Below, piece by piece: positions 13,265 to 37,227 of a DNA stretch of 37,227 bases. Made by a program: the position numbers and the translations under genes. Location of the stretch: positions 1-37,227 of IMG/VR virus record IMGVR_UViG_3300030099_003170. The stretch is one strand, 5' to 3'. The notes under the pieces were generated by a model. The model searched no databases, was not told where the DNA came from, and worked only from the letters and a program-made list of their open reading frames with translations. The stretch comes from a virus. How positions within the stretch are numbered: the stretch's first letter is position 1; the number at the start of each line of letters is the position of its first letter.

Positions 13265-13564
13265 CTAATCACGGGTCAAATTATGCCTTGAAGAAAACTC
13301 TTTCTCATGTCTTCTTGAAGTAATAATTGGCATACCTTGATTGTTGCACTTTGCTCCTGCAACATATCTTGGCCCAGACCTTGAAACATATGGGTAGCCA
13401 TGTACTACAGCACCCATTCCAGCATCTACTATAAAAGAAGAAACTCGTGTCCATTCGTTTCCATCTTCATCTTCTACAGTAGAACCAATATCAGGGACAT
13501 CAGACATATTAAAGAAAAATTCTTTTTTTTCGCCCCTGTTATTTTTAAACTCATACATCGGCAT
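13265..13564 (-). CDS. Hypothetical protein, FmdB-like N-terminus (99 aa)
   Basis: The protein begins MPMYEFKNNRGEKKEFFFNMSDVPDIG, which resembles the start of FmdB-type zinc-ribbon proteins (MPIYEY...). The paired cysteines of that family are missing; only one Cys is present (CNNQG). So zinc binding is unlikely and the resemblance may be only a shared small beta fold. It overlaps the portal stop by one base (TAATG) and is followed by an intrinsic terminator, so it is translated with the portal. Phages often carry such a gene next to the portal; function unknown. Confidence 0.6.
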   Translation of the reverse strand: MPMYEFKNNRGEKKEFFFNMSDVPDIGSTVEDEDGNEWTRVSSFIVDAGMGAVVHGYPYVSRSGPRYVAGAKCNNQGMPIITSRRHEKEFSSRHNLTRD

Positions 13565-15336
13565 TATCGGTTTCTCCTTGCCTCTCTTCTGGCTTCAGCA
13601 GCAGGGCCACTAGGTGACATCTGACCTGACACATTGCCTGCTGTTGGATTTGGTATACCGTTCATGTTAACCCCACCAAAGGAAGGGCCACCGCCACTCA
13701 TCATTTGTTGTTGACCTTGTTGCATAGCACCCTGCATGTCTATGACATTACCAAGTTCAGGTATATTTAAACTGTGACCTAAGTAGTCAAAAAGTTTATT
13801 CCATTGCACAAACGGTGCTTGTGGTATCAATGGAGCAAGGTTTCCTATAAGACCAATTACCTCTGTTGCTCTTCTTTGTTGCGATGCTTGGTTTACTTTT
13901 TCTGTTGAGTATGGATCTATTTCTAAATCTAAATCTTCATAGTTACCCGCACCTGATCCACCCTTAAATACAGGATCTACTTCATTTAACATATCAATGC
14001 CTTCTTGACCTAATGGTAATTGGACACGATCATCGTGAAATAAATACCAAGAAACTGACTTTAAAACAGTCTCAAGAGAAGATCTAAATTGTCTTTGTAT
14101 ATGTGCAATACGCAAGCCTGATGCTGATTCTGCTACAGAAACCTCAGTTGCTGTTGCATCTCCGCTAATCATACCTCTTTGCACTTCATTCATACCTGAC
14201 AATCGATCAATTCTGTTTTGCAAATCGTTAACATATGTTAATTGTTGCTGTGTAATACCGCCTATTTCGACTGGAACAATCCTGTCACCATCTAAAGAAT
14301 CTACAGGTATAACAAATAAATCTGGCGATTCTTTGATTTGTTGTGGCAAAGTTCTATTCTTAGCATCAACAAAAATTAATCGTTTGTATGCACCTGCCCC
14401 GTAAGTAATAGATCGGTAATGGTTGTTTAAATCTTTAATAATTGGATTACTTGCAACCAATGGTGACAATGGATATGGCGAGTTTGGAACTGTATAAAAT
14501 CCAAAAACACTATATGGGCCTGATCGTGGTCCATAATAATCTACTGGCTCTCTAATCATGCCTCGATCATTTTCGCTTGATTCACTTCCATATGCTTCGG
14601 AGTTGTACCCAAAGGTATATATTTTACCATGAAACTTGCCATTTTTTGGTGGCTGTGCTGAAGGTACGAATACTTCGTAAACCGCAATTTCATCACGGTA
14701 TCCAGCATAAGAAGATCTATATCCTGATCGTAGTTCAGATGTTCCAGAGCCATCAGCAATTTTTTCTATTTCTTCTGCATTGTAAGTCTTGTCTTTCTCT
14801 GCTAACGCTAACAAGTCTTCTTTTCGTGAAATATACTTGTGCCCCATGTACTTGCAGTTGTCAAGGTCTTGTGCAGCAGGATCAACAAAGAAATGCTCTG
14901 GGTTTATTCGATACACCTTTGGCAAGAACATTGGATCATTTGATGTTGTAGTTTGACCCAATAATGGCTCTTGTCTTGTAAGTGCAACACCCCAAGCAAA
15001 GAAAGTATCAACTGCAATTTTTTGCATAGTGTCTCTAAAATCTGTAGATCTGCACCATAAATTTAATGCCAACTGCATCTTTTGAGCAGTCAACTTTTGT
15101 TGTACTGGCCTTCTTGATGACACTCTTACAGTTGGATTATCGTAAATTAACCTTGGTAAAACTAAACTAACATACTCAAACATCGAGTTTGCAGGGTCAA
15201 AATCAGTAGATTCATACCCTCCGCCTTGATAGTCAGGGCCAGTATATCGGTTGATCATCGCACGATAATCACCTAAATGCTGATCTCTAAAATCTTCAGC
15301 CTGATTTACTTCGTCAATTAAATATTCTGGAGTCAC
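13564..15336 (-). CDS. Portal protein
   Basis: A 590-aa protein with the layout of podovirus portals. It has an N-terminal helical part (LIDEVNQAEDFRDQHLGDYRAMINRY), a wing region with SMFEYVSLVLPRLIYDNPTVRV, and a central ...NPIIKDLNNHYRSITYGAG... clip-proximal segment. A long crown/stem helix region follows (NDLQNRIDRLSGMNEVQRGMISGDATATEVS), then a Met/Gly/Gln-rich disordered tail. It forms the dodecameric DNA gate and docks the terminase. The start is GTG at 15336, whose bases overlap the TGA of the 42-aa gene; GGAAT upstream is a weak ribosome site, so coupling probably matters. Placement between the lysis-type membrane genes and the capsid genes is ordinary. Confidence 0.92.
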   Translation of the reverse strand: MTPEYLIDEVNQAEDFRDQHLGDYRAMINRYTGPDYQGGGYESTDFDPANSMFEYVSLVLPRLIYDNPTVRVSSRRPVQQKLTAQKMQLALNLWCRSTDFRDTMQKIAVDTFFAWGVALTRQEPLLGQTTTSNDPMFLPKVYRINPEHFFVDPAAQDLDNCKYMGHKYISRKEDLLALAEKDKTYNAEEIEKIADGSGTSELRSGYRSSYAGYRDEIAVYEVFVPSAQPPKNGKFHGKIYTFGYNSEAYGSESSENDRGMIREPVDYYGPRSGPYSVFGFYTVPNSPYPLSPLVASNPIIKDLNNHYRSITYGAGAYKRLIFVDAKNRTLPQQIKESPDLFVIPVDSLDGDRIVPVEIGGITQQQLTYVNDLQNRIDRLSGMNEVQRGMISGDATATEVSVAESASGLRIAHIQRQFRSSLETVLKSVSWYLFHDDRVQLPLGQEGIDMLNEVDPVFKGGSGAGNYEDLDLEIDPYSTEKVNQASQQRRATEVIGLIGNLAPLIPQAPFVQWNKLFDYLGHSLNIPELGNVIDMQGAMQQGQQQMMSGGGPSFGGVNMNGIPNPTAGNVSGQMSPSGPAAEARREARRNR

Positions 15337-17817: not shown

Positions 17818-19629
17818 TTACCATGGGTACAAGTCTTGGTCAACCTTTAATATTGAACCCAATGTATCTGGCCCCCACTCAGTTTTGTTGTCTTCATAAT
17901 AAGAGGGCCATTCTTTTCTAAGCAGTATGCAACCAGATATAGCAATGATACGGTCACCATGTGCTTCTTTTGCACCTGTGTTTTCATCCCTAACAGAAGC
18001 CGACTCTATGCCACCATTCTCTGTAATTACATAATTTAATGCTTCTTCTAGTGCATCTTTGCATCGAATAACTATGTCTTCGGTAATCATAGCCCTAGTA
18101 AGACCCCCTAACAAAACCCTTTTATTAGATCTTGTAGATGTCCAGCCGTATCTTTTGCCTCTTTTTTCGGTGCTTGTACCAACGGAACGCTGACGATACA
18201 AAGCGGAATAGCCCAACCTCTCAAAGTCTAGGTGCATTGCACCGCCAGCCCCGTTGGTTTCCCACCCCACAAGGGCCTCAGTCATGGCTCCATTGTAGAT
18301 ACTGCTACCTGCTAGAGCCATTTGTTCTGCTAAATCTTGTGGTGCGGTTCTTGGGTCTGCAAATATAGCAACTATTTGGCCATCGTCAACATCCATTACC
18401 GCACAGGTAGCATTTGCTTTACCAGTCCCATAACTTGGGTCGGCAAATATTACATAGTTAGTCATTTTCACACCGTCTGGTTCTGTCCACACATACCATC
18501 GTCCATTGTCGCTTTCTTCAAAACCACGACTTCCAATCTCACAACGCCTTGGTTTTTCCATATATCGCTTGATATGGTCAGAAACCACAGCACTTGGAAA
18601 GAATTGATCACCAGATTGCTGGTCATCAGCAAAAATATTCTGAGCCACATCCGTAGGATCAGCCCGTCTGTCTATTTGTTTTTGCAACCATGGTGTCCAA
18701 TAGTAAGTTCTGCCTACCAATCCAGTAATTGAACCGTCATTATCTACCCTTAGTTCCCTGTTATCGCCCTTCTTAGGGACGTTATAGTACAACACATCAA
18801 TAATTTTTGGTGTGCCATTGGTCAATCCTTGCTTACGAAGTCTCGAATAAGTAGTGCCTGCACCTAGTGGAGTAGAAACCACGATTCGACATCCAGATGT
18901 GTCGGCAGCAGATCGCCACGCATCTTCCGCAGGCCCCATCGCTGCAAACTCATCAAATACGACCGCTTGTGCTCGACCTCCTCTACCAACATGTCCTGTT
19001 GATGCTTGCCCAAGAATTGTAGATCCTGACTGAGGGTTTCGGAATTGCAAGTGCGAACGATTCTTACCTCCGAACTCAAGTTCCGATAAGTCGCAAGGGA
19101 GAAGCCATGGCGGTTGTTTCTTAAGTAAATATTCAATCTTCCAGAATAAAGATGAAGGATCGCCTCTGCGATCTAGGGATTCTTCGACTCTTGAGACGTA
19201 GATCCATTGGCTTTCTGGCACGAACAGAAAATGCCACGCACCAAGCAATGCCACCAACCACGACATTCCGCAGTCTCTCGATTTGGACAACACGACATCA
19301 TTGCCTTCTTGCACAGCCCTAGACATTTCTTCCAAGGCATTAACTTGCACAGGCCACAAAGAAAATGGCACATGCGGTTGTTTCGCAGGCACTTCTCGTC
19401 CGTTTTCATCGACTTCTCGCACTCGGTATGTCCAGCAGCAGTACGCCGCCCACCATTCAATAGATTGGCTAGATAATGTCCACATTTGTCCTTGAAGTTC
19501 TTCATTGTTTCCTGCTTTCTCTAAAATATCTAATCTTGACGCTTGAACCTCTTGGGCACTTGTAGGTATCCAAAGACCTGTCTTCGGACACTTTCTGCCC
19601 CTTTCAAACTCTAACGGAAATAATTCCAT
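17818..19629 (-). CDS. terL: Terminase large subunit (packaging ATPase-nuclease)
   Basis: A 603-aa two-domain packaging motor. The ATPase half shows a Walker A-type loop SKSRDCGMSW (115-124), Walker B AVVFDE (222-227) and the coupling motif STPLGAG (252-258). The RNase-H-fold nuclease half shows IFADPSYG (Asp397), GWETNG (Glu457) and AHGD (Asp559), a plausible set of metal ligands. It docks at the portal and cuts concatemeric DNA. The ATG at 19629 directly follows the stop of the 76-aa gene. The small subunit is about 1.4 kb upstream, separated by seven small genes, a wider gap than usual. Confidence 0.96.
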   Translation of the reverse strand: MELFPLEFERGRKCPKTGLWIPTSAQEVQASRLDILEKAGNNEELQGQMWTLSSQSIEWWAAYCCWTYRVREVDENGREVPAKQPHVPFSLWPVQVNALEEMSRAVQEGNDVVLSKSRDCGMSWLVALLGAWHFLFVPESQWIYVSRVEESLDRRGDPSSLFWKIEYLLKKQPPWLLPCDLSELEFGGKNRSHLQFRNPQSGSTILGQASTGHVGRGGRAQAVVFDEFAAMGPAEDAWRSAADTSGCRIVVSTPLGAGTTYSRLRKQGLTNGTPKIIDVLYYNVPKKGDNRELRVDNDGSITGLVGRTYYWTPWLQKQIDRRADPTDVAQNIFADDQQSGDQFFPSAVVSDHIKRYMEKPRRCEIGSRGFEESDNGRWYVWTEPDGVKMTNYVIFADPSYGTGKANATCAVMDVDDGQIVAIFADPRTAPQDLAEQMALAGSSIYNGAMTEALVGWETNGAGGAMHLDFERLGYSALYRQRSVGTSTEKRGKRYGWTSTRSNKRVLLGGLTRAMITEDIVIRCKDALEEALNYVITENGGIESASVRDENTGAKEAHGDRIIAISGCILLRKEWPSYYEDNKTEWGPDTLGSILKVDQDLYPW

Positions 19630-20933: not shown

Positions 20934-21080
20934 TTATTCTTTAATTTTACACCCATCCCCTGTGTCTCCATCACAACATGGCCCAATGTTTCCTCCACAC
21001 TTACTACATTGTATGTGACCATGTACATATATCGGCTCATACCTTCTTCCACATAAAGGACATGTTTCAGGGACTGTCAT
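20934..21080 (-). CDS. Zinc-ribbon mini-protein (48 aa)
   Basis: ATG at 21080 has GAGG six bases upstream and overlaps the end of the small-terminase gene by 14 nt in another frame. The product MTVPETCPLCGRRYEPIYVH continues with HIQCSKCGGNIGPCCDGD and ends KIKE. Two CxxC knuckles (CPLC at 7-10, CSKC at 25-28) form a clear four-Cys zinc ribbon, and two adjacent Cys (35-36) and one more (44) follow. Zinc-ribbon mini-proteins often bind nucleic acid; coupling to terS suggests a packaging accessory, by inference. Confidence 0.75.
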   Translation of the reverse strand: MTVPETCPLCGRRYEPIYVHGHIQCSKCGGNIGPCCDGDTGDGCKIKE

Positions 21081-21687
21081 CTTTTTCCTCAAGGGGTTTT
21101 AAAACGGTTGTTGTCTCTGGGGCCACCATGCCAGAGTCAGAAGGGATCACCGTACCCCCCACCCCTTTGTCAGAATTTAAATTTTTTGCAGTCGACTCGA
21201 CAAATTTATTTTCTTGTTGCCCTAGCAATCTTTTTAAATCTTCTACGCTTTCTTTTTTTCTCTCAACAGATAATTCTATCTTCATCGGCTCGCTGTTCTT
21301 CTTGTAAAGATCTGAGCAATGACTGAGAACAAATCTCAACATGTTTGTATCGGGTTCATTGTGTGCATCACCTGAAGCAAGGCGGACGGCAACCTCGTGC
21401 AGTCTCTCCATACATGAAGCAATCGATTGCTGTACTAGATCCTCGAACTCTGGCTGTTCTCTTCTCCATCTAGTGAGTGTACGCCATTTTGGTGCCCCCT
21501 CTTCTCGCATTGCTGAGGCTATAACACCGTTACATCGATTTAATATTTCCAGAAAGTGGGATTGTCTGTCTTTCATACGTTGACGTCTAACAGCCTTAGA
21601 GCGATCCCTAGCGTGTTCTAACTGTGTATGGGTATCCTGAGGGCTATTGTACCCTTCGTTACTGGTAACATGTTCACTCATAGGCAT
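21067..21687 (-). CDS. terS: Terminase small subunit (DNA recognition)
   Basis: The protein has an N-terminal helix-turn-helix type region (SHFLEILNRCNGVIASAMRE then GAPKWRTLTRWRREQPEF, about 43-80), a helical oligomerisation region (DLVQQSIASCMERLHEVAVR, about 83-102) and a disordered acidic tail. This layout fits small terminase subunits that bind the packaging site and load TerL. It is the first gene of the leftward block, starting ATG 21687 (MPMSEH; second ATG two codons later) with a poor ribosome site. It ends overlapping the zinc-ribbon gene. Length (206 aa) is normal. Confidence 0.75.
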   Translation of the reverse strand: MPMSEHVTSNEGYNSPQDTHTQLEHARDRSKAVRRQRMKDRQSHFLEILNRCNGVIASAMREEGAPKWRTLTRWRREQPEFEDLVQQSIASCMERLHEVAVRLASGDAHNEPDTNMLRFVLSHCSDLYKKNSEPMKIELSVERKKESVEDLKRLLGQQENKFVESTAKNLNSDKGVGGTVIPSDSGMVAPETTTVLKPLEEKDDSP

Positions 21688-25100: not shown

Positions 25101-25517
25101 ATGATACCACTATTAACATGCCTAGCATTCGTTCTAAGCGTTCCAGATATGTCACCAATTGAGGATGCAATCTGGGCTGTGGAATCGAACAGATGCCAGT
25201 CAGGCTGTCCCAAAGGAGACTCACAAAATGCTCGTGGCCCACTTCAGATATGGCGTGGTGCGTGGTCTGATTGTAAACGTAACGATGAGACATACGAGAT
25301 GTGCGAATCTCTGGAATACTCATTAAAAATCTTTCGCCGATACTGCGAACGATACTTAACTGTTAAGCGTTTAGGTCGAGTCGCAACTGATGAAGACAGG
25401 GCCAAATTGTGGAATGGTGGGCCTAATTTCTTTCGCACCAAATCACAAAAAAAATTAGACAATCTTGCCAGATACTGGGCAAAAGTAAAAAAGGAGTTGG
25501 ATGAAAATGAGGGATAG
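25101..25517 (+). CDS. Exported lysozyme/transglycosylase-like endolysin
   Basis: Residues 1-17 form a hydrophobic leader (MIPLLTCLAFVLSVPDMS) likely used for Sec export. A lysozyme-fold pattern follows: AIWAVESN with Glu28 as probable catalytic acid, GDSQNARGPLQIWRGAW (GPLQI 46-50), a helix ending RYCERY (80-85), WNGGP (104-108) and ARYWAKV. This pattern matches a family of phage peptidoglycan hydrolases with GPxQI and HNGGP motifs; here His of HNGGP is Trp. Several cysteines (26-70) may form disulfides outside the cytoplasm. It sits among early genes, away from the holin candidates. ATG 25101 has AGGAG. Confidence 0.75.
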   Translation: MIPLLTCLAFVLSVPDMSPIEDAIWAVESNRCQSGCPKGDSQNARGPLQIWRGAWSDCKRNDETYEMCESLEYSLKIFRRYCERYLTVKRLGRVATDEDRAKLWNGGPNFFRTKSQKKLDNLARYWAKVKKELDENEG

Positions 25518-26298
25518 AGACTATCGTAATCAAACAGGGTATTCACAATCAGATCTAAGGATCTTAGTGGAAAAGTGTCCAAAGGCATTTAGGTATCATC
25601 TTGATAACCCACAGCCACGGTCATCTTCAATGATGCTAGGAACAGCCGTTCACATAGCACTACTAGAGCCCGACAAGATAGCATCAGAGATAGCGGTTAC
25701 AGAATTAAAAACCAGAAGAGGTCAAGCATGGGATACTTTCAAGACCGAGAATCTAAATAAAGAATGTATTCTGAAGGCTGATGAATGGGCACATGTACTT
25801 GGGTGCGTTGATGAGATAAGACAACATCCACTTTGGAATCAATGCCTTAGAGACAATCCAGTTATTGAGAAGCCGTTGTTCTGGTCTGACCCTTTTAACC
25901 CTAATATAAAATTAAAAAGCAAGCCTGATATTGTGACCGATACTATGGTGATAGATGTAAAAACTACCACCGATCTGTCTAGTTTTCACAGAAACTTTTT
26001 TAACTATTGGTATCACTTTCAAGCGTCCGCTTACACTCGTGCAGTTCAACAAGAGTACGGTGGTGAGCCACGCCAATACAAGATATTAGCAGTAGAAACT
26101 AAGGGAATAAACCTAGTTAAAGCATTTGATATTGATGATCAAGTCATCGAGTTTGGTTCGATGTACTGGGAGAAAGCATTAAGTATTCTTACTTGGTGCC
26201 TAAGAGAAGACCGATACCCTGATTACGGTGATCAGGCAAACGGGTATATAGGATTGCCTGAATGGGCACAGAAAGAAATGGAGGCGATAACTCAATGA
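25501..26298 (+). CDS. PD-(D/E)XK exonuclease (RecB/Cas4-like, RecE-type role)
   Basis: A 265-aa nuclease with the ordered motifs of the RecB/Cas4 superfamily: GTAVH (47-51), KPD (141-143), IDVKT (151-155, Asp152 and Lys154) and QASAY (174-178). Such phage enzymes resect double-strand ends 5'-3' to expose single strands for the annealing protein encoded next door. The start could be ATG 25501 or the second ATG two codons later; AAGGAG at 25491-25496 fits either. It overlaps the endolysin gene by 17 nt and the ERF gene by 4 nt. Confidence 0.85.
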   Translation: MKMRDRDYRNQTGYSQSDLRILVEKCPKAFRYHLDNPQPRSSSMMLGTAVHIALLEPDKIASEIAVTELKTRRGQAWDTFKTENLNKECILKADEWAHVLGCVDEIRQHPLWNQCLRDNPVIEKPLFWSDPFNPNIKLKSKPDIVTDTMVIDVKTTTDLSSFHRNFFNYWYHFQASAYTRAVQQEYGGEPRQYKILAVETKGINLVKAFDIDDQVIEFGSMYWEKALSILTWCLREDRYPDYGDQANGYIGLPEWAQKEMEAITQ

Positions 26299-26990
26299 GT
26301 ACTACCACGAAGAAGACTACCACTAAGAAGAAGGAAGTCTTAAACCTACACCAAAGATTAAATTTAGTTCGAGAGCAACTAAGTCAGCCACTAGTAAAGG
26401 AGTCCATGGTTCACAATCAATATTCAGCCGTGACCCATGATCAAATTACTGGTGCTGTTAGAGATCTACTTACTAAGTTTGGTATTAGCACTTGCCATGA
26501 TGTTGAAACATATACAAGAGATAATAATTTTATTGTCTTAAAAGGCATCACTACTTATTACAATGTCGATAACCCAGATGACAAACTAACCCTTGGGTGG
26601 TATGGAGAGGGTGTTGATAGAGGTGACAAGGGACTAGGCAAGGCTTGGAGTTATGGATTGAAGTATCACTACGCTAAAATGTTTGGCATATTGTCTGGAG
26701 ATCAAGACGAAGTTGATCAGCATATATCTGAGTACAAGCCGTCTGGATCTGGGAAGATAGCAAACAATACCGTAGTAAGCACTAATGAATCTAGTTCTGA
26801 ATCACAGAGAGAGCAGATTAGAAAGTTGATATCTGACGTGTCTGAGTTTGATCCTGATGTATTTGACAACATGATGTCACATTTTAAAAAGGAGTTTGGA
26901 ATTTCTAACATTACTGATATGTCAAGATCAATGGCTGATACTTGCATACAACATCTTAAAAATAAAATAGCACAACAAGGAGGTGCATAA
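26295..26990 (+). CDS. erf: ERF-family single-strand annealing protein
   Basis: Start ATG 26295 (MSTTTKKTTTKKKEVLNLHQ) overlaps the exonuclease stop (ATGA) and follows GGAGG. The centre has the ERF signature YGEGVDRGDKGLGKAWSYGL then KYHYAKMFGI (103-132), plus an upstream ITTYYNVDNPDD strand region. A Ser-rich linker (150-172) leads to a helical C-terminal domain. It would anneal complementary strands during concatemer formation and repair, working with the exonuclease upstream and the SSB-like protein downstream. Confidence 0.88.
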   Translation: MSTTTKKTTTKKKEVLNLHQRLNLVREQLSQPLVKESMVHNQYSAVTHDQITGAVRDLLTKFGISTCHDVETYTRDNNFIVLKGITTYYNVDNPDDKLTLGWYGEGVDRGDKGLGKAWSYGLKYHYAKMFGILSGDQDEVDQHISEYKPSGSGKIANNTVVSTNESSSESQREQIRKLISDVSEFDPDVFDNMMSHFKKEFGISNITDMSRSMADTCIQHLKNKIAQQGGA

Positions 26991-27356
26991 ATGAAACAAG
27001 GTTTTAAACTACATCCAACAGGAAACTTTAGGGCAACTATTACCTCTGTAGAACAAGCCGTATCCAAAGCGGGTAACGATATGTTAGTCGTTCAATTTGA
27101 TACCGATTGTGACTTTAAGTATGGATTGAAAGATTGGGTTATGCTAAAATCTAAAGGATTAGCAGGGGAAAAAAGAGAAGCATTCAAAAAAGTATTTGGT
27201 ATCAAGACTGGTGACGCAGTAGATCTAGAGTCTTTAGTTGGAGAAAGTTGCAATGTATTTATCGAACATGATGGAGGCTGGACAAGAGTTCACTACGAAT
27301 CAGACCAGCAACCACCAAGCGAACCAGCAATAAAGGATTCTGATATCCCGTTTTGA
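26991..27356 (+). CDS. SSB-like single-strand DNA-binding protein (DUF669-like)
   Basis: The 121-aa protein follows the pattern of phage DUF669/OB-fold proteins: GNFRATITSVEQAVSKAGND then MLVVQFDTDC, a central WVMLKS ... KVFGI helix and LESLVGESCNVFIEHDGG. It ends in KDSDIPF, matching the acidic DIPF tip that SSBs use to recruit partner proteins. It immediately follows the ERF gene (AGGAGG, no gap), completing an exonuclease-annealase-SSB module. Confidence 0.8.
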   Translation: MKQGFKLHPTGNFRATITSVEQAVSKAGNDMLVVQFDTDCDFKYGLKDWVMLKSKGLAGEKREAFKKVFGIKTGDAVDLESLVGESCNVFIEHDGGWTRVHYESDQQPPSEPAIKDSDIPF

Positions 27357-27373
27357 TGGTTATCCTTCTCTTG

Positions 27374-27393
27374 CTGTGCCCTAGCGGGTGCAG
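27374..27393 (+). promoter_or_regulatory. Intercistronic hairpin before winged-helix gene
   Basis: CTGTGCCC-TAGC-GGGTGCAG forms eight continuous pairs in RNA (two are G-U). It lies in the 45-nt gap between the SSB-like and winged-helix genes, 8 nt before the latter's ATG, which otherwise has only a weak ribosome site. No T-run follows. It could modulate translation or mark an RNA processing site. Confidence 0.5.
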
Positions 27394-27401
27394 TAAGAAT
27401 T

Positions 27402-27761
27402 ATGACAGAAAGATCTTTATTTGATAAACCAGTCGGTAGAGGTGAGTCTACTGAAAAAATCCGCTTTGATAATAAGGTAAGCGGTGAGGCTTTTAAAAAG
27501 TCCTTTGTTCGTGCTAAATCTGTACAGCATTCAATATTGATGTGCTTTAAATTAGAGATGAAAACATGCGAAGAGATTGAAGAGGAATTAAACAAGTCAC
27601 ATCAATCTGTATCTGCTACGTTGAACGCCCTAATGAAAAAGGACTTGATTGAGAAGTCTGGTCTTACTAAAAAAGTTGCGAGTGGCAATCTTGCAAACCT
27701 TTGGAGGCTTACAACTAAAGGAGAAATGGAGGTTAAAAGATGGAGCGACCTGAATTTCTAA
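27402..27761 (+). CDS. Winged helix-turn-helix DNA-binding protein (119 aa)
   Basis: Residues about 41-108 form a winged-helix domain: a helix SVQHSILMCFKLEMKTCEEI, recognition helix SHQSVSATLNALMKKDLIEK, and a wing ending LWRLTTKGE, as in MarR/phage regulator folds. The N-terminal 40 residues are polar. It might regulate early/late switching or assist replication. It overlaps the next gene by 22 nt. The only strong regulator candidate in the genome. Confidence 0.75.
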   Translation: MTERSLFDKPVGRGESTEKIRFDNKVSGEAFKKSFVRAKSVQHSILMCFKLEMKTCEEIEEELNKSHQSVSATLNALMKKDLIEKSGLTKKVASGNLANLWRLTTKGEMEVKRWSDLNF

Positions 27762-28081
27762 ACGAAAAAAGAAAAAAGCGTATAGTTGAATTGTTAAAAG
27801 CATTACCTAAAGGGGACTTTACACCCATGCTCACGAGTCAATTACTATTGATGAATGGTGCTGAAGAAAAAGAAGTTGAAGATGTTGATGACTGGTCAGT
27901 AGTTACACGAGATAGCAATGGTATGCCTGACCGTGTTATTTGTTCTGGTATTGATGACGGCCGAGTGTTGCAATTAATATTATTTGCAGTACCACTTTTA
28001 AAATCTTGCATAGACACTATAGATTTTCAGAGAAGAATCAATAAGATCTATGCTGAAAGCAGAAACAGAAAGGAATCTTAA
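27740..28081 (+). CDS. Early protein of unknown function (113 aa)
   Basis: Starts MERPEFLNEKRKKRIVELLK within the 3' end of the winged-helix gene (22-nt overlap, GGAGG upstream). Helical ends and an acidic middle (GAEEKEVEDVDDWSVVTRD). No family recognised. Shares one base with the start of the replication initiator gene, so probably co-translated with it. Confidence 0.65.
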   Translation: MERPEFLNEKRKKRIVELLKALPKGDFTPMLTSQLLLMNGAEEKEVEDVDDWSVVTRDSNGMPDRVICSGIDDGRVLQLILFAVPLLKSCIDTIDFQRRINKIYAESRNRKES

Positions 28082-28791
28082 TGAACAATCTGCACAGAAT
28101 GGCAAGGGCTATGGAAGAAAAAAGCCTTACTTGCAATCAAAGAATAGTTCTTCTTATATTAATAAATCATACAGGAGTAGATAGCGGAGAATGTTTTCCT
28201 AGTCTTAGAAGGATTAGTGAGAAGTCTGGCCTATCAAGATCTACTGTAATGAGAGCCATAGATAGAATGCATACGTTAGGCATGATCATGGTAGAAAATA
28301 GAACAAGAGCCAACGGATCTAGCACATCAAATCTGTACAAATTAAATGATCAATGGTGGGAGGAGGGGTGTCAAATTGAAACCCCCCCTAGTGTCACTAC
28401 TGACACCCCCCCCGTGTCACAGGTGACACCCCTTGAACCGACTAATAAAGAACCGACTAATACTAAAGTATTTGAAATAGGTGCTGAAAAAATCTATTCA
28501 ATTTACCCTCGCAAGATAGGAAAAAAAGCAGGGATAAAAGCAATCATCTCTGCCTCCAAAAGAGTGATGAAACATTCAGGCGTATCAGAGGCAGACGCAT
28601 TTACCATGCTGTATGTTTCGGTAGAGAAGTACCCGTTTGGTAATGAGAAAAAATACATTCCCTACCCATCTACTTTTTTTAATCAAGAGCGTTACCTTGA
28701 TGAAGTAGAAATTGAAATAAAAACTACAGATACTTTGGTAGAAATGACGAAGAGAATAAAAGCACAGGAGAAAAACAATGAGTTGGGATGA
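28081..28791 (+). CDS. Replication initiator (lambda O-like, HTH plus C-terminal organiser domain)
   Basis: The N-terminal part (15-90) is an HTH_36-type winged helix (LTCNQRIVLLILINHTGVDS ... GLSRSTVMRAIDRMHTLGMI), as in phage replication initiators. The linker (about 95-128) is Pro/Thr-rich. The C-terminal part has IYPRKIGKKAGIKAI (140-154) and KYIPYPSTFFNQERYLDE (191-208), the 'YP+K..K ... YIP.P.TFLN..RW' pattern of replisome organisers. The DNA coding for the linker contains three 23-bp palindromic iterons, as lambda O contains its own origin. It should bind these and recruit the host helicase, possibly through the next gene's product. Confidence 0.85.
   Translation: MNNLHRMARAMEEKSLTCNQRIVLLILINHTGVDSGECFPSLRRISEKSGLSRSTVMRAIDRMHTLGMIMVENRTRANGSSTSNLYKLNDQWWEEGCQIETPPSVTTDTPPVSQVTPLEPTNKEPTNTKVFEIGAEKIYSIYPRKIGKKAGIKAIISASKRVMKHSGVSEADAFTMLYVSVEKYPFGNEKKYIPYPSTFFNQERYLDEVEIEIKTTDTLVEMTKRIKAQEKNNELG
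28368..28436. repeat. Candidate replication origin: three tandem 23-bp palindromic iterons
   Basis: Units start at 28368, 28391 and 28414, exactly 23 bp apart. The consensus is GTGTCANNNNTGACACCCC with a C-rich tail. Units 2 and 3 are perfect inverted repeats (unit 3 also extends to GTGTCAC/GTGACAC); unit 1 has a decayed right arm. The period is not a multiple of three, so selection is on DNA and not on protein. An AT-rich stretch follows (about 28460-28510). Location inside the initiator gene mirrors lambdoid origins. Confidence 0.78.
28435..28462 (+). repeat. Direct repeat GAACCGACTAATA (two copies, 15-bp period)
   Basis: Copies at 28435-28447 and 28450-28462, directly after the iterons. 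The 15-bp period keeps frame and codes EPTNK-EPTNT in the linker of the initiator, so it may be a protein-level repeat; it could also be an accessory origin site. Confidence 0.7.
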
Positions 28792-29311
28792 AAGCCACAC
28801 CACCACCATGTCAGAGTTGTACCCAAACTGGTCACCTACAGCCATGCAACTTGAAGAATACATGAAAGAGTTTAGTAATACCGATGAGTTCTATCTAAGA
28901 GGTGCCATCAAATTGTATTACAGAAAGAGTAAATACCCTACGCCACCAAGACCTGAAGCATTGCGTGAAAAACTTAGAGAATATGTTGAAGAAGATAAAA
29001 AAGAAAACGGTAAAGGTACAGGACACAAATGGTATTGGGTTAAATTTTTAAATGAAAAAGGTTATTCAGAGGTAATGGAAGTTATCAATGATAGAGAACA
29101 TGCACTACAGATAGGGGAACAAGTAAACGGTGTTGTTACTGAAAAGTGGAGAGAAGATGGTATGTGGAAAGAAAAAACATTGAGGAAGGGTGTAGAGTTT
29201 CAATGGCAACTAAAAAAAGAAGAGCCAAAAATTAGCACACCTAACAGCACCCTATCAAAAAACATTGGTATGATTAAGGAAGAGATGAGTAAAGGGACGG
29301 TACAGTTTTGA
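28778..29311 (+). CDS. Possible helicase-loader-type replication protein (177 aa)
   Basis: Overlaps the initiator gene by 14 nt. The N-terminal segment (ELYPNWSPTAMQLEEYMKEF ... FYLRGAIKLYYRKSKYPTPP) resembles the N-terminus of phage helicase-loader/inhibitor proteins (G39P, lambda P-like), where 'LYP...' is followed by a short helical bundle and 'FPPT/P'. The rest is charged and helical. Position right after an O-like gene supports a loader role, as O-P pairs. The family link is weak and needs profile comparison. Confidence 0.5.
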   Translation: MSWDESHTTTMSELYPNWSPTAMQLEEYMKEFSNTDEFYLRGAIKLYYRKSKYPTPPRPEALREKLREYVEEDKKENGKGTGHKWYWVKFLNEKGYSEVMEVINDREHALQIGEQVNGVVTEKWREDGMWKEKTLRKGVEFQWQLKKEEPKISTPNSTLSKNIGMIKEEMSKGTVQF

Positions 29312-29793
29312 CTGAAGAGGTACTAGCATGGGTGGTAGAAGGCGAGCCAAAGGCACAGCCTCGCCCCCGTGCCGTATCCATCAATGGCAAAGCACGAATG
29401 TATAACCCTAACAACGCACGGGGTTACAAGGACACAATAGGTATGGCCATGCATGAGGTAGCGAAGAGAAGAAGAGTGGTACTACCAATTCATGGTCATA
29501 TCTTTGTGGACTTACAACTGTTTTTTAAAAGACCTAAAAGGTTGTGTAGAAAAAAAGATCCTGCGGGAGAGATGTGGCATGTATCAAAACCTGACTGCGA
29601 TAATGTAGCAAAAGCAGTTCTTGATGCTATTTCACAATGGGGTGGGATATCGGATGACAAGTCTGTGGTGTACTTGTCCGTATCTAAAAAGTGGGTAGCC
29701 AAGGAAGAAGGGCAACCTAGAACAGAAATACTGTTAAGCAGGGAGGCTCTCGATGCCAAAGAAAACACAGAAGAAAGATCACAAGGATCTTGA
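29308..29793 (+). CDS. rusA: RusA-type Holliday junction resolvase
   Basis: A 161-aa protein with the RusA pattern: VEGEPKAQPRPR near the N-terminus, KPDCDNVAKAVLDAI (94-108) and ISDDKSVV (114-121). Asp96, Asp98 and Asp116/117 are likely metal ligands. It resolves four-way junctions and branched DNA before packaging. The start is TTG 29308, whose bases overlap the TGA of the previous gene (TTGA); it places the conserved N-terminal strand correctly. Overlaps the next gene by 41 nt. Confidence 0.9.
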   Translation: MTEEVLAWVVEGEPKAQPRPRAVSINGKARMYNPNNARGYKDTIGMAMHEVAKRRRVVLPIHGHIFVDLQLFFKRPKRLCRKKDPAGEMWHVSKPDCDNVAKAVLDAISQWGGISDDKSVVYLSVSKKWVAKEEGQPRTEILLSREALDAKENTEERSQGS

Positions 29794-30016
29794 AATAGAA
29801 ATGTTGAATAAAATAATAGACGATCAGCAAGAAAAAATAGAAAAGCAAAACTCTATAATATTAAAACAAGCAGAAGTTGTAGGGGATGCTATGGTCTATG
29901 TATCAGATATAGAAAAGAAAAAGTTTCCATCGGTGTATACAAGAAAAACTTATGATGAATCATACGATGATTTAGAAAAAACTATGGATTCACCTGACAT
30001 AAGAAAAGAATTTTAG
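29753..30016 (+). CDS. Last rightward gene: coiled-coil protein (87 aa)
   Basis: MPKKTQKKDHKDLEIEMLNK leads into an uninterrupted helical coil (DDQQEKIEKQNSIILKQAEV) and an acidic/Tyr-rich end. It has no known domain. It starts inside rusA behind GGGAGG and is the last gene before the convergent hairpin at 30048-30095. Function unknown. Confidence 0.6.
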   Translation: MPKKTQKKDHKDLEIEMLNKIIDDQQEKIEKQNSIILKQAEVVGDAMVYVSDIEKKKFPSVYTRKTYDESYDDLEKTMDSPDIRKEF

Positions 30017-30095: not shown

Positions 30096-30357
30096 ACATA
30101 TCTACTTCGTTTAATTTAATTAACTTTGTAACAGCAAACTTAGGTATAGTAATTACATAATCAAAGGTTTCGCATTCTGGCTTCCATGCACCAGCAACAG
30201 ACAAACTTTCATTTGTTTCTCTTACAAGAAATCCACATTGATATATCATTTGTGGATCTGGTATGTCATGCAAACTCACCTCTGCATTGTCAGCAGGTTC
30301 ACATGAATCTAACCACTCAACTAAGACACTCGGCCATTCTTGCGACTGGTTTTTCAC
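30094..30357 (-). CDS. Small closing gene of the leftward block (87 aa)
   Basis: I choose GTG 30357 because AAAGGA lies 9 nt upstream; ATG at 30375 or 30411 is possible in the same frame but lacks a good ribosome site. The product has PSVLVEWLDSCEPADNAEVS, then MIYQCGFLVRETNESLSVAG and an end FDYVITIPKFAVTKLIKL. This looks like a small phage family with a 'V.W.D....G.L......L.......I.IPK..I..I..L' outline. Function unknown. It overlaps the phosphoesterase gene by 41 nt. Confidence 0.6.
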   Translation of the reverse strand: MKNQSQEWPSVLVEWLDSCEPADNAEVSLHDIPDPQMIYQCGFLVRETNESLSVAGAWKPECETFDYVITIPKFAVTKLIKLNEVDM

Positions 30358-31147
30358 AGGGAACCATCCTTTCATAAGTAGAAGCAGACCACTCAACACC
30401 ATTGCATTCATGTAATTTTTTAGCCGTGTTTACTTCCCCATAAACAATGGCTTGACCCCAACAAGAAACATCTTTTCTTGTCATGTATTCTGGCGTTTGA
30501 TCACCGAATCCGAGAGTTCCTGCATTAGCAAAGAAGTGGGGTAGCCGTACCCGTGCAGATTTCTTAGCCTGCGTGACTTGGACTGGACGATGTGTGTGCC
30601 CCCTAATCCATAGCCTCCACGGTTGTGCACCTGTAACATACGACATCTGTAAGGATTCGGTTTCGTCACTATTACTCCCTGCATCAAAGCCATGAAAAAA
30701 ACCAATCTGTCCTAGAGAGTAGACACATTGTGCCCCTTTCTCATATGGATATTGTTTCCACTTTCTAAACTCATCACCATAGGTGCGAGTGTTATTCCAA
30801 TTCACAATATCTCTTAAACCTTCAGGTATTCTTCTTGGATCGCACCGTTGTATGTTGTCATCATGGTTTCCCAATGTCCAAACAAACGATGCGTTGGTAG
30901 GAGAAGCACGTCTTACTTGCTCTAAAAAATTAGAGGCTACAGCGTACTCATCTAACAACGTATGCTTTACTTCATCTGGATGCACCGATGCAGCCGATGC
31001 GTCAAACAGATCACCAAGACACACAACTACATGTGGCTTGTAATCTGCTATTTCATCTAGCACCCAACGCATAGCCTCAGCCGTGGGATAAGGACTATGA
31101 AAACATGAGAATGCTATAAACCTTTTTATGTTTGTTTCTTTTTTCAA
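30317..31147 (-). CDS. Calcineurin-like metallophosphoesterase with altered first motif
   Basis: Contains GDLFD (45-49), GNHD (93-96), FFHG with His152 and GHTH (183-186), four of the five metal-site motifs of calcineurin-type phosphoesterases. The first motif, normally DxH, reads SCFHSPY: Cys15 stands where Asp is expected and His17 is kept. It may be a nuclease or phosphatase acting on DNA ends or nucleotides. The start is TTG 31147 with GAGGTGA upstream. It follows the giant virion gene by 30 nt, an odd place for an enzyme, hinting at late expression. Confidence 0.82.
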   Translation of the reverse strand: MKKETNIKRFIAFSCFHSPYPTAEAMRWVLDEIADYKPHVVVCLGDLFDASAASVHPDEVKHTLLDEYAVASNFLEQVRRASPTNASFVWTLGNHDDNIQRCDPRRIPEGLRDIVNWNNTRTYGDEFRKWKQYPYEKGAQCVYSLGQIGFFHGFDAGSNSDETESLQMSYVTGAQPWRLWIRGHTHRPVQVTQAKKSARVRLPHFFANAGTLGFGDQTPEYMTRKDVSCWGQAIVYGEVNTAKKLHECNGVEWSASTYERMVPCEKPVARMAECLS

Positions 31148-31177: not shown

Positions 31178-34100
31178 TTAACCTGCGTTCTGAAAGTTCT
31201 CCTGTCTTTCTTTTGACATTTCCAAAGACGGACGTATATCAAAATTTTTCACTTCGTTATACAAAGAAGTAAGACCAGTTCCTTCTTGTAACTCAGTTAA
31301 ATATGTAACTAAAAGTTCTTGTAATTCATTTTCTAGTTCGGCATTTAATTTGTTACGTTCTTGTTGTGGTAAAGATTTTATTTCTTCTTGTGTACCATAC
31401 TTTCTTTTAACCTTTCTTTCTTCTGATCTATACTCTTTATACATATCAACAAATTTATATAGTGGCCTACTAACTTCGTCTGGTATATCTTTACTCTCAA
31501 CATCCTTTAAGGCTTTTTCAAAGTAGGCACCTAATGCCAATACCCTATCGCCCTTAGTTTTCCTAGACTCAAAATCTCTAGCCCACTCTGCCATTGGTGT
31601 ATACAAAGGGTTACCAAACAATTTAGTTGCTTCAACCATCTGTCTTGTTACCCCTCTAAAATCTCCTTCAAGAGCCTTGTCAGCACCCCTAGCAAAAGAT
31701 CTTAATGCACTACTTATGGTATCTATACTCGCTACCTGTAAAGGATCTCGGCCAGCAAACTTACCAAGTTGCTCTGCTGCATTCAACAGTCTCCAATCGT
31801 CTCCAATAATCTCTCTATCTTTTGCTGCTCCTATAGCAGATGATGTAAATGAAAGGAAAAGATTGGCTAAAGGTTCACCCATAGGTATTAAACTAGTAGT
31901 ATCTCGAACAATACCACCTACTATTCTTCTTGCAGTTCTTTCTTCTTCTTCTATTTCTTGTAATATGTCATCTTCAAAACCAAACAATGTTGAAAGTGCT
32001 ATTGCGAATGGAGATGCAATCAAAGCGTTTGCTCCAAAACTAGCAACCATATTCCCTGAAACGGCTGCTACTGCTTTTCCAAGTTTATGATCTTGTCCTA
32101 ATTTCTTTTTCTGTAATTCTTCCATTATCATGGTAGTTTTTTTCATTGGATCAGATTGAAATAACAATAAAGATTTAGAGATACTACCAACACCTGATTT
32201 GGTTTTTATTCTTGTAGCCCATCCAGCATCGTCCATTGGGCTAGTAACATTCTGAGTTTCTCTTAAAGCATCAGATGCTTTTTCAGCAGCGTACTTTCTT
32301 TTTTGTTCAGGCGTAGCATCGGGCAACAATTGATCTGCTTCTGCAAGATAACCTTTGTAAGCAACCATGCAAACACCTGCATCAATAGTCTGTAATATTC
32401 TAATAGAACCTCGTACCCCTTTAAGTGCACCGTAGACTGCAACTCCTCTTTCTTTTAATGAAAGATTATTTGTGTTCGCTAACGCTCCATAAAATTGTGC
32501 TAATGCATTCTCTAAAGTAGCATTGTCTTTTAAGCCTAATGTTTCTGCTTCTCCCTCAAGAGATCCATCGTTGTAAGAGTGACCAGAAAATCTTGAGTAC
32601 CCTTCTTGTCCAAACAATCTGTCTCTTATGTATGGAGAATCTTCAATCATTTGTCTATACAATTTTTTACTAAAGGTAGGTCTTAGACCTTCTAAGAAAA
32701 ACTTAGTATCCATGGAATATAATAAGGATGCTGTACCACCAAAATACATTTTAGCCCACGTTCTTGGACTAATGGTAAGAACAGATGCAGCAAGATTTCC
32801 TAATGCACCATCAAATATTCTATCTAAGGTTTCTACTGGTTTTCCTGCATTCATTCTTGAAGACGCTAAGATTTGCATTCGCAACGTTTCAAGGGTATCT
32901 GCACCATAGGCTTCTTCAATTTGTTTTTTAATTTCTGTATCGTTTAACATGGAGTCTATGTCTTTAGTTGGCACTAAAAACTCTGACATTGAATGCATTG
33001 TTTTCATGTGATCAAACCATAACTCAAGGCCATCTTGTAACAAAACAGGAACGTTGTTATTAACTCTGTCCTTAGTAAAACCTTGAGCATTTAAAACACT
33101 ATTAATGTCATTCCCATAGTTGTCTATAATAACTGCTGAGGGCTTAGTACCATCTTTCTTTATGCTGTCTCTGTCTAATCCTGCTGGGAAATATCCTTGT
33201 ACTACCTCTGGCTCTGTACCAGTTACTTCTCTAATTGCTTTGTATGCATCAACTCTTGACAGTTCCATTTGCTCTTTCATAACAGCAACAAGATCTGCCA
33301 ACTCTGGATTTTGCTGGGCTATGTCTGATCGAAAAGCAATTATATCTAATGTTGCTTCTTCTATTTCATCCTTAATAAAATTACCATCTTCATCTCGCAC
33401 TTTAATTTTAAGTTTTGCTCCTATAAAATCGCCTGCTTTGTTTTTTCTTTCAACATCCATTCTTTCTAAAATGTCAGGATCAATAGCAAGAAGATGCAAC
33501 GCTTCTCCTAATGTTATTTGAACTACTTGTTCTTGGTCAGTTCCTCTTCTTGTTGTAAAGGTAAAGTACTGTGTCATTGCACGGCCATTGCGTTCAGAGC
33601 AACAGTTTCTCAAATGATTAAAGTTTCTAAATCCTGCTGCTCTTGCTGCTTCGTCAACAGCCTTAATAGTCCTGTTATTTTTCTCAATCATTTTTGCCTC
33701 TGCTTTTCTAAGCGTTGGCACAATAAATCTATAAAGAGCACTATCTTTACCGCCACCTATAAGACTCACAGATCTAGACAAGTCCATGGCGTTCCTAAAC
33801 CAATTTTTAATAACTGGTGTTTTCGTTGCTTTCTCTGTTTCTACAGCCTCTAAATTTCTTTTTCTTACTGTCTGTTCTACTTCATCTTTAATAGAACGTC
33901 TTGCTTGTGCTAATCTTTCTGCCCTTGCCTCTGTTATATACAAAGACTCGCCAGCATAGGCATTGTATTTTTCTACAATTTTTTGCTGAAGAGATCGTAA
34001 CTTCTCTTCTCTTTCCATTAATTGCAAAGCGTCTAAATCTTTTAATCCTGTTTTTGCTTTCTTTGTTAATTCATCCGCTTCTTTAACTAGACCCATGACT

Positions 34101-37100
34101 TCATCTCTCTGAGACACTTGTTCCTCTGGGGAATTTTTAGATGTCTCAGGCGTAGGAGTAGTGCTAGATAAAAACGATTTTTTTTTACGAACTTGTTTAT
34201 TTACTTTTTTCAGTTTGTCAACAGATAACTTGTACGACAATACCTTGCCAGTTCTTCGCATCTTGTCTATTAGTTTAATAGCCTTGCTCGTAGATTTTAC
34301 ATTAGTAATTTGTTTTAAAAGTTTTCCTCTCTCTGCTAACGGCAAGTCTTGTGCTTCTGCAATAAGCATTGGCTGTATTTCTTTTATTAATTCTTTTTCT
34401 CTTTTATTTTTTTCTTTTATATTTTTTATTGATTCTTGTTTTCTTTTAAGTTTTTCTTTTAGATTTTGCAGTTTAAGATCTTTGAGTCTTAGTTTGCCTT
34501 CATATCTTCTTGATATATTTTCAAGTCTTTCTTCTAACTTCGCTAGTTTTTCTTCTCCCTTTTTTTCTTTTTTAATTCTGTCTTTAAACTTTCGTATGTA
34601 ACTTCCTTTGAGATCTTTCCCAGCCAGTATGTTTTCATATACTTTCAATGCTGTTAAGAATTGCCATTGAGGCATTGCTGGGTTTTTTTCTTTCATTGTT
34701 TCTTTAACCCAGTCAGGATGCTGACCATTTAACATTTTTGCTATTGAAACAGATACAGGATCTCCTTCGGCAAACAACATATCAATTAATCTTTGAGTGT
34801 CTGACTTTGGCCCATCTACATCTAAAGCAAAGTCTGGTCTACTTAGTCTATGTGCATCAAAAGAAACTTGAGCAAGTTCTTCTGCTTTCTCGCTCGTAAT
34901 GGTATCACCATATTTAGTTTGTATTTGATTTAGCACTTCTTCATAAGTAACAGAATCTACACCTGTAAACTTATCTGCTATTACTGTAGGATCAGAAACG
35001 GATGGAAGGACTGCCTGTATTGTTCCTTCAGAAACAGGTGTGTCTATAGAAAGATCTGGTGCTTGAACGTCTTCGTCTACTGCTCGTTCGGCTGGGGGTT
35101 TTGGTCTACTGGGGAGGACAAATCCTTGGCTTGCAATTCTCTTGTCCCCTCTGAGGTCGGAGATAAATCCTTTGAATCCTTCATTTCGTTCTTTGGCGAT
35201 TTTGAGAAGTTTCCTCTCAACCCTGTTGAGATCGAGACGCTGCTGACGGGAAGACCTAGCCTCTGGAGATCTTCCAATGTTCCTACTCGTGCCCTTTTTA
35301 ACGATGGCTTGGCTTGTTCTTTCGTCATAATTACCCTCCTCGATATAATGGCTGCTGTAAGCAGCATTAAATATTGTAACATCATCTACAAAGTTTTCAT
35401 ATTTATTTCCTAAAAAAGATTGTATTTCTTCTTGAGTAGGAACCTTGTCGTATGCGTTTATTTCTACCATAAACCCATTGCCATATTTTGCTAGGTTTAC
35501 ATCAGTACCTATTTCAGTAGCAAGGTCTTTTGTAAATTGATTTATTTCTGCTTCAGTTGCATCAGGCCTATTTACAAATACTGTAAATGTTCTTGTCGCA
35601 TCTCCAACACTATCTTCAGGATTAATGTTTTCAAATCTACTTGAAGCCATTGCTTTTTGATTGAATGTTTTTCCTAGATAAGCCAAAAATGTTTCTACTT
35701 CTGAATCTGTTAAATCAAAAAAAGTGTCTTTAGTACGACCAACCAACGGAATACGCATGTTAGGATTTAACTCTCCTAAATAAGTACCTCCACCTTCGTA
35801 ATCTATTCTAGAAATGTTTACGCCTTTGACCCCTGTAATTGATTCTAAGAGTTCTGATATAACACTTCGTGATCCCTTAGGTGCTTTGCCTAAAGATTTA
35901 AAAGTCTTTTTCTGTATCTGATTATATTTCTTTTTAAATTGTTTTACTAAAGGTTTAGTTGGATCCTGTGTCTTTAACCATTCGTTCAACTCGTCTGCTT
36001 CTTTTCCTTCTGGTGTAACTTGCGTTGCCACTTCAACGGTAGCAAACTCCATATCAGCAAAAATATCAGCAGTAGATGAAAGAGCAGAAGTTAATTGTTT
36101 TCCTTTTTCCCCTGTAAAATGTTCCATGGTAAGAGCATTTTCTTCTGGTTTTAATATGCCTTTTTTCTTTAAGGACTTAATTATAGTCTGTAAAGACTGT
36201 GCGTAATCATCACTTACACCTTGCTTGCTGGCTTGTTTTTGACCTCTTATTGCTACCCAACCTAAAGCCTGTAACTGCCACGCCTCAAAAGGCTGTGCTC
36301 CTTCAGGAAGTTTTTCATTTAAAACATCCCTTAATGCTAAGTAGTAATTAGAAATATATTCATAAAGAGAACCTTTAGATCCAAGAACATTTTCTTTTAC
36401 ATCAAACAATGCAGCAACTTGCCTGTCGTTAGTAGACAAGGGAACGGTGTTAGACTCGCCCATCAAATATAAAAAAGTGTTTGCAAAGTTTCCAAACTTT
36501 AAAGACTGCGGCCCAGTATCCATTGCATTTTTAAGTGTGGTTGTGTGCGTTCTTGTTCCTGTGTTAATAGGAACTCTTCTGTTAATTTCAGAAAACATAG
36601 ACAACGCTTGTAACATGTTTGGATATGGTGCTTCTCCACCACTTGTTGCTGACAACAAATTGACAAATCGTTTCATTTGGTCTTGTGGTATTTGAACCAA
36701 ATCTTTAAAAGATTGAGAAGACAACTCATACCAAAATCTTGCTCGGCTTGGTTGCTCTAACATATCCATAATAACTTCTGCAGTTGGCAAAGTTATACCA
36801 GCAGCATCTTTTTTTGCTTTATCTGTAGAGTTTTTATCTGTTATATCTTTTATTCTGTCTATATCGTCTTGTGATATTTGTAATACAGGATTAGGTTTTT
36901 CTGCTAGTCGCTCCCATGTTTCTTCTGGATCAACTGGCTGACGAGGCTCAGGACTAGACTTTCTCTTGTCTTCGTGTATAACTTCTGACAATTGATCTAA
37001 CGTCCTAGATTGTGCAGAATAACTAGGATCACTTAACACATCATCAAGCGACAACATAGCCTGATCAGACTCTACATCTACTTCGTTGTTAATGTAATCT

Positions 37101-37227
37101 ATGTTTTCTTGTTGTCTTTTTGGGCCTGCTGCTCTTTGCCCTTGTATAAATGATAGTACATTTTTTTCTAATATACTTCCTGAAAATCCTAACTCTATAA
37201 ACTTTCTTTTAAAGTAATCTCTTACTA
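31178..37227 (-). CDS. Giant internal-type virion protein, C-terminal part (continues from 1843..1)
   Basis: Codons 615 onward of the roughly 2597-aa protein; 37129-37227 repeats 1-99, and no stop interrupts the frame between 37129 and the first internal Met at 37057. A very long Lys/Glu coiled coil lies at about residues 1450-1530 (EEKLAKLEERLENISRRYEG and onward) and another charged helical part lies near 1590-1680. A hydrophobic Ala-rich segment at about 2300-2330 (GNMVASFGANALIASPFAIA) could insert in a membrane. Preceding it is SLLLFQSDPMKKTT. Such features fit large ejected proteins (T7 gp16-like role, or DarB-like/large polyvalent proteins). I see no lytic transglycosylase motif. It ends ENFQNAG. 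Confidence 0.8.
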   Translation of the reverse strand, partial: VRDYFKRKFIELGFSGSILEKNVLSFIQGQRAAGPKRQQENIDYINNEVDVESDQAMLSLDDVLSDPSYSAQSRTLDQLSEVIHEDKRKSSPEPRQPVDPEETWERLAEKPNPVLQISQDDIDRIKDITDKNSTDKAKKDAAGITLPTAEVIMDMLEQPSRARFWYELSSQSFKDLVQIPQDQMKRFVNLLSATSGGEAPYPNMLQALSMFSEINRRVPINTGTRTHTTTLKNAMDTGPQSLKFGNFANTFLYLMGESNTVPLSTNDRQVAALFDVKENVLGSKGSLYEYISNYYLALRDVLNEKLPEGAQPFEAWQLQALGWVAIRGQKQASKQGVSDDYAQSLQTIIKSLKKKGILKPEENALTMEHFTGEKGKQLTSALSSTADIFADMEFATVEVATQVTPEGKEADELNEWLKTQDPTKPLVKQFKKKYNQIQKKTFKSLGKAPKGSRSVISELLESITGVKGVNISRIDYEGGGTYLGELNPNMRIPLVGRTKDTFFDLTDSEVETFLAYLGKTFNQKAMASSRFENINPEDSVGDATRTFTVFVNRPDATEAEINQFTKDLATEIGTDVNLAKYGNGFMVEINAYDKVPTQEEIQSFLGNKYENFVDDVTIFNAAYSSHYIEEGNYDERTSQAIVKKGTSRNIGRSPEARSSRQQRLDLNRVERKLLKIAKERNEGFKGFISDLRGDKRIASQGFVLPSRPKPPAERAVDEDVQAPDLSIDTPVSEGTIQAVLPSVSDPTVIADKFTGVDSVTYEEVLNQIQTKYGDTITSEKAEELAQVSFDAHRLSRPDFALDVDGPKSDTQRLIDMLFAEGDPVSVSIAKMLNGQHPDWVKETMKEKNPAMPQWQFLTALKVYENILAGKDLKGSYIRKFKDRIKKEKKGEEKLAKLEERLENISRRYEGKLRLKDLKLQNLKEKLKRKQESIKNIKEKNKREKELIKEIQPMLIAEAQDLPLAERGKLLKQITNVKSTSKAIKLIDKMRRTGKVLSYKLSVDKLKKVNKQVRKKKSFLSSTTPTPETSKNSPEEQVSQRDEVMGLVKEADELTKKAKTGLKDLDALQLMEREEKLRSLQQKIVEKYNAYAGESLYITEARAERLAQARRSIKDEVEQTVRKRNLEAVETEKATKTPVIKNWFRNAMDLSRSVSLIGGGKDSALYRFIVPTLRKAEAKMIEKNNRTIKAVDEAARAAGFRNFNHLRNCCSERNGRAMTQYFTFTTRRGTDQEQVVQITLGEALHLLAIDPDILERMDVERKNKAGDFIGAKLKIKVRDEDGNFIKDEIEEATLDIIAFRSDIAQQNPELADLVAVMKEQMELSRVDAYKAIREVTGTEPEVVQGYFPAGLDRDSIKKDGTKPSAVIIDNYGNDINSVLNAQGFTKDRVNNNVPVLLQDGLELWFDHMKTMHSMSEFLVPTKDIDSMLNDTEIKKQIEEAYGADTLETLRMQILASSRMNAGKPVETLDRIFDGALGNLAASVLTISPRTWAKMYFGGTASLLYSMDTKFFLEGLRPTFSKKLYRQMIEDSPYIRDRLFGQEGYSRFSGHSYNDGSLEGEAETLGLKDNATLENALAQFYGALANTNNLSLKERGVAVYGALKGVRGSIRILQTIDAGVCMVAYKGYLAEADQLLPDATPEQKRKYAAEKASDALRETQNVTSPMDDAGWATRIKTKSGVGSISKSLLLFQSDPMKKTTMIMEELQKKKLGQDHKLGKAVAAVSGNMVASFGANALIASPFAIALSTLFGFEDDILQEIEEEERTARRIVGGIVRDTTSLIPMGEPLANLFLSFTSSAIGAAKDREIIGDDWRLLNAAEQLGKFAGRDPLQVASIDTISSALRSFARGADKALEGDFRGVTRQMVEATKLFGNPLYTPMAEWARDFESRKTKGDRVLALGAYFEKALKDVESKDIPDEVSRPLYKFVDMYKEYRSEERKVKRKYGTQEEIKSLPQQERNKLNAELENELQELLVTYLTELQEGTGLTSLYNEVKNFDIRPSLEMSKERQENFQNAG
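37129..37226. repeat. Terminal direct repeat, right copy
   Basis: Identical to 1-98; the final base of the window (37227, a) differs from base 99 (c). If real, this change would turn an Arg codon (aga) into Ile (ata) in the giant protein; a contig-end error is more likely. Confidence 0.9.

Follow-up and report, generated by a model that had tools for sequence, protein, structure and literature searches.

The question raised by the viral contig IMGVR_UViG_3300030099_003170 was whether its two ends belong together and encode a single giant protein and, if so, what kind of phage protein this would be. The window, that is, the whole stretch of DNA analysed, comprises 37,227 bp, and its positions 1-98 and 37129-37226 form an identical end repeat of 98 bp. 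The ends disagree solely at base 37227, where the contig has A and position 99 has C. This base is probably an assembly tip, and because of it the circularity may escape a test that demands a perfect end repeat. Closing the repeat gave a circle of 37,128 bp. Leftward from the ATG at 1843, which is preceded by AAGGAA, one frame reads through the join to 31178 with a single terminal stop and encodes 2597 residues. The gene measures 7794 bp, or 21.0% of the closed circle, in agreement with the share of about 21% given by the initial annotation, in which one protein across the ends had been proposed. The span assigned there, 31178-37227, holds the right part of the gene, but 1-1843 belongs to the gene as well. 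The warning that annotation of the linear contig would split the giant was correct in principle, two open-ended frames being present, 2-1843 (614 aa) and 31178-37225 (2015 aa), in identical phase through the repeat.

A second circular contig opened inside the giant gene was G008 (39,067 bp; entries L171 and L172), which has an exact end repeat of 123 bp. Its closed product (3076 aa) and the product of the uninterrupted gene in a further relative, G006, were 98.4% identical along 3073 residues; a cut in the same gene, which is intact in G006, indicates that the join is more than chance. A single ORF of the relative L170 is colinear with the giant on both sides of the join (residues 426-502 and 1741-2423), and whole-gene relatives remove most of the doubt on the join. 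Direct terminal repeats exist in T7-like phages, and the circle was judged here from the overlap of the ends, which would leave room for a linear genome whose ends are 98-bp direct repeats and in which the gene is truly split into pieces of 614 and 2015 aa. Such a split is extremely improbable, since frame and phase are continuous across the join, G008 is cut with another repeat length while G006 is intact, and the gene is whole inside contigs of other relatives. The shared repeat, the in-phase frames and the G008/G006 control thus confirmed, at the level of sequence, that the contig ends belong together and encode one phage protein of 2597 residues. All features are detailed in Table 1.

Table 1. 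Position of the features along the contig (residue numbers refer to the giant protein).
Feature	Position	Strand	Basis
Giant gene, 5' part (residues 1-614)	1..1843	-	ATG 1843 start
Giant gene, 3' part (residues 615-2597 + stop)	31178..37128	-	read on from the join; G008/G006 control
Terminal repeat copy 1	1..98	.	assembly overlap of circular map
Terminal repeat copy 2	37129..37226	.	identical to 1-98; 37227 mismatched
N-terminal module, residues ~134-337	833..1444	-	hhalign vs shuffles
Zincin-like metallopeptidase domain (supported), residues 395-613	5..661	-	alignment A4, AF2 model, sub-threshold matches
HELVH motif, residues 479-483	395..409	-	sequence and alignment
E552 (EGIA), predicted third zinc ligand	188..190	-	conservation
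DUF7178-like domain, residues ~720-912	36236..36814	-	sub-threshold PF23802, phmmer, alignment A8
Region between DUF7178-like domain and coiled coil, residues 1000-1235	35267..35974	-	no family match
Lys/Glu-rich coiled-coil stretch, residues ~1440-1720	33812..34654	-	composition
C-terminal helical module, residues 1715-2480, family core	31532..33829	-	alignment, profile
Most hydrophobic window, residues 2308-2326	31994..32050	-	Kyte-Doolittle
543-aa coiled-coil gene just upstream of giant	1855..3486	-	ORF list, relatives
S74-type tail-fibre gene	3928..5094	-	
Major head protein gene	10385..11785	-	
Portal gene	13564..15336	-	
TerL gene	17818..19629	-	
Small terminase subunit gene	21067..21687	-	
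Exonuclease, Erf-like, SSB, O-like and RusA-like genes, consecutive	25501..30016	+	
Metallophosphoesterase-like gene	30317..31147	-	

The giant is the last tail-side gene and shares its strand with the portal, major head protein, terminase and tail-fibre genes, an arrangement that is syntenic in the relatives. The plus strand carries the genes for an ExoVIII-like exonuclease, an Erf-like annealing protein, SSB, an O-like initiator and a RusA-like resolvase. A metallophosphoesterase-like gene lies directly downstream of the giant. Relatives were reached by means of the TerL and portal alignments, which matched scores of IMG/VR contigs; judged from these matches and from its genes, the phage is a member of a sizeable uncultivated group of podovirus-like gene content. 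Single-protein scans of viral contigs with the giant retrieved no relative, and tblastn of the GenBank phage collection with the two parts of the giant and with the portal gave no match. TerL of the relative L004 reached 128 GenBank phage records, but only distantly: identity was below 60% throughout, and most of the matches were partial. At the corresponding late-gene position the relatives encode giants of 2351-4126 aa, directly upstream of which, where the fetched stretch reaches it, there is a co-directional ORF, mostly of 419-598 aa. A match to the giant of the contig is encoded in nine of 35 related records and an LPD38 giant in nine different ones, with no record encoding both; absence from the remaining records is uninformative, as some of them are fragments.

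The giant is organised, in this order, into an N-terminal module, a zincin, a DUF7178-like domain, a coiled coil and a helical C-terminal module of 766 residues. The N-terminal module is Gly/Ala-rich and includes a TEGSEE motif. Against the joint profile of both giant classes it obtained an hhalign score of 56.5 (E 1.2e-6), the best of 60 shuffles scoring 23.8, and the profiles of class A and class B giants matched each other with an E of 1.8e-12. These profile comparisons support a module common to both classes, LPD38 giants included.

Two middle domains were recognised. The HELVH site reported by the initial annotation is borne out by alignment A4 (13 homologous regions), in which E480, H483, E552 and a C-terminal glycine are invariant; a glutamate as third ligand had been proposed near 551-556, and conservation across the 13 regions points to E552. 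In all 31 full-length giants with this C-terminal module, [H/E]ExxH is followed by E[G/S]xA. In the AF2 model of the domain (pLDDT 60, low confidence), a helix and three strands precede the HELVH helix, and the helix with E552 comes later; this is the order of a zincin, as given for the superfamily by Iyer et al. (PMC5512222). Alignments A5 and A6, in which the second half of the domain of the contig giant was misplaced, were excluded from folding. Matches of the region to DUF2268 and DUF6782 were sub-threshold; the model gave no match to solved structures at E up to 0.001, and several zincins appeared among the weak rows of the fold searches, none of them significant. Together, the alignment and the low-confidence model support a predicted zincin-like metallopeptidase with HExxH and a downstream Glu helix.

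The first zinc ligand varies among the 31 giants: 15, including that of the contig, have HExxH and 16 have EExxH (L170, L173, L175, L176, L193-L195, L201, L206, L210, L212, L216, L219, L221, L222 and G008). At least five His/Glu changes were counted on the tree of the C-terminal module. Each replacement of His by Glu needs two base changes. Given this difference among relatives, the canonical HExxH is not required by every member.

For the second middle domain, the match to PF23802 (DUF7178) reached 16.4 bits, below the curated cut-off of 27 bits (E 0.0089), and covered 34-192 of 193; phmmer homologues (best E 6e-5) occupy the same relative position after the zincin in other giants. The nearly full-length sub-threshold match and these homologues support its being a divergent relative of DUF7178. 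A Lys/Asp motif suggested a helix-hairpin-helix glycosylase; no glycosylase was found in PDB profile searches with the domain, and this reading is a lead only.

Residues 1000-1235 had no family match; their likeness by eye to a domain of the relatives was rejected, the score (18.1) being lower than that of shuffles (24.4). Matches of the giant to HeLo, QIL1, kinase and phosphatase families were of low complexity or sub-threshold and were set aside. The long Lys/Glu coiled coils of the initial annotation correspond, on composition, to the Lys/Glu-rich helical stretch of Table 1, where residues 1440-1545 include 32 K+R and 19 E+D among 106 residues. The late hydrophobic segment was also recovered, as the top 19-residue window, with a mean Kyte-Doolittle value of 1.68 that is moderate for a membrane span.

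The C-terminal module aligned end to end with those of nine relatives (10 sequences in total), with 49 invariant columns and about 21-24% identity. The A7 profile detected it in 33 viral loci, all uncultivated, where 36 ORFs hold it, and in 0 GTDB genomes; tblastn of GenBank phages with the modules of L174 and L176 gave no match, and neither did Pfam or PHROGs with the module. Its AF2 model was mostly helical, at a low-confidence pLDDT of 53. Foldseek searches against BFVD returned 48 matches with E no higher than 1e-3 (the best at 4e-10) and with low TM-scores of 0.17-0.33, and most of those with a name were fragments of phage giants (large polyvalent protein, PolyVal ADP-ribosyltransferase, MuF, structural protein); against PDB nothing was significant (E above 0.3). 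Direct comparison of A7 with the LPD38-type C-terminus produced no alignment, although full-length profiles compared earlier had matched at E 9.7e-7 over part of it, so that the two types may be related. The LPD38 giants of the same clade, found at the corresponding locus of sister genomes (e.g., G002 with 3940 aa and G021 with 3848 aa), share with the contig giant the position, the N-terminal module and a zincin with the E-x-A third-ligand motif, but their C-terminal module is of the LPD38 type.

Phage-type polyvalent proteins, as described by Iyer, Burroughs, Anand, de Souza and Aravind (2017, PMC5512222), are multi-domain proteins with a zincin hub encoded in the late-gene neighbourhood, and the giant resembles them in these traits. 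Members unite domains of disparate activity, for which the zincin and the DUF7178-like domain are the candidates in the giant. ART-PolyVal occurs in six of the 10 giants of alignment A3 and in the C-module homologues L174, L175 and L177, and LPD38 stands at the same locus in sister genomes. From ART-PolyVal in relatives, the late-gene position and the zincin, we consider that the giant is quite probably a phage-type polyvalent protein, which would be packaged in the virion and ejected into the bacterium with the DNA. Late-gene position, synteny and homology to polyvalent-protein giants also support the virion-type protein first proposed, predicted to be present in the virion; what goes beyond that proposal is the assignment to the polyvalent proteins, together with the DUF7178-like domain, the N-terminal module common to both classes and the family-wide C-terminal module. 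Unlike typical members, the giant carries in its own sequence no polyvalent-protein Pfam domain (ART-PolyVal, LPDs) above the curated cut-off, LPD38 (PF18857) included; such a domain is usual, not universal, in the class. This absence counts against the polyvalent reading, as do the zincin being the sole enzymatic domain recognised, the lack of canonical HExxH in some members, and zincin and C-module models of low confidence without a significant PDB match.

Another possibility is that the giant is mainly an ejection machine, whose N- and C-terminal modules build an envelope channel while the zincin and the DUF7178-like domain aid assembly or passage and have no effector role in the host. Its late position adjoining a coiled-coil gene, and a middle that differs among relatives between two shared terminal modules, fit such a role, as does the ejected giant N4 vRNAP, in which an HExxH subdomain likewise occurs together with a large, mostly C-terminal helical part (PMC12633501). 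The large late proteins that leave the head in podoviruses (T7 gp16, PhiM1 TEP/OEP) offer a likeness too, VIA-align listing the PhiM1 ejectosome (8vb2_A) for residues 30-335 of the low-confidence C-module model with Z 6.2 over 210 residues at 5.5 A, although a Z under 8 lies within the stated background of the tool and the Foldseek similarity was not significant. In contrast to those proteins, no lysozyme, transglycosylase or other peptidoglycan-cleaving domain was found in the giant, and its variable middle can hold ART-PolyVal, which fits delivered effectors; a purely machine role is possible but doubtful. It is unlikely that the zincin acts instead in the producing cell as a packaging or maturation protease before assembly, with only part of the protein entering the virion. 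Autoproteolysis before packaging has been discussed for P1 DdrB (PMC5512222), and the zincin does sit between the N-terminal module and the remainder, but N4 vRNAP is packaged unprocessed (PMC5512222), and an obligate maturation step would require activity of the EExxH form found in half of the relatives.

Under the polyvalent-protein reading, packaging, ejection and processing are what we infer from the class and from the analogy with N4 virion RNA polymerase (gp50, about 3500 aa), which likewise combines an N-terminal part, cargo, an HExxH subdomain and a helical C-terminal part. The zincin of the giant precedes the cargo, whereas that of N4 follows it; no sequence similarity between the two was found, and the giant gave no Pfam, NCBIfam or PDB-sequence match to a single-subunit RNA polymerase domain. 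The giant would be packaged in the head and exit by way of the tail, either before the DNA or together with it; its N- and C-terminal modules would serve packaging and envelope passage, and its middle domains would act in the new host. The substrate of the zincin might be the giant itself, whose middle domains would thereby be set free, and not a host protein; this self-cleavage after entry is the least certain step, rated clearly lower than an ejected polyvalent protein. A complete self-cutting ejection device, with envelope-crossing end modules, host-directed cargo freed by the zincin and a repeated His/Glu switch that tunes or disables the cut, appears rather improbable.

The kind of protein is known, and this branch of it is uncultivated and undescribed. 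What is new is the C-terminal module, its exchange for the LPD38 type and the recurrent His/Glu switch. An uncultivated giant lineage, with a C-terminal module unmatched in Pfam and PHROGs, is added to the polyvalent-protein class, and in one phage clade a single locus carries either of two unlike C-terminal modules, exchanged for each other. Cuts internal to the gene in circular contigs hide such giants from annotation, as in two genomes of this small set, the contig and G008. Finally, the recurrent switch between His and Glu constitutes a natural series for asking whether the activity of the zincin is needed.
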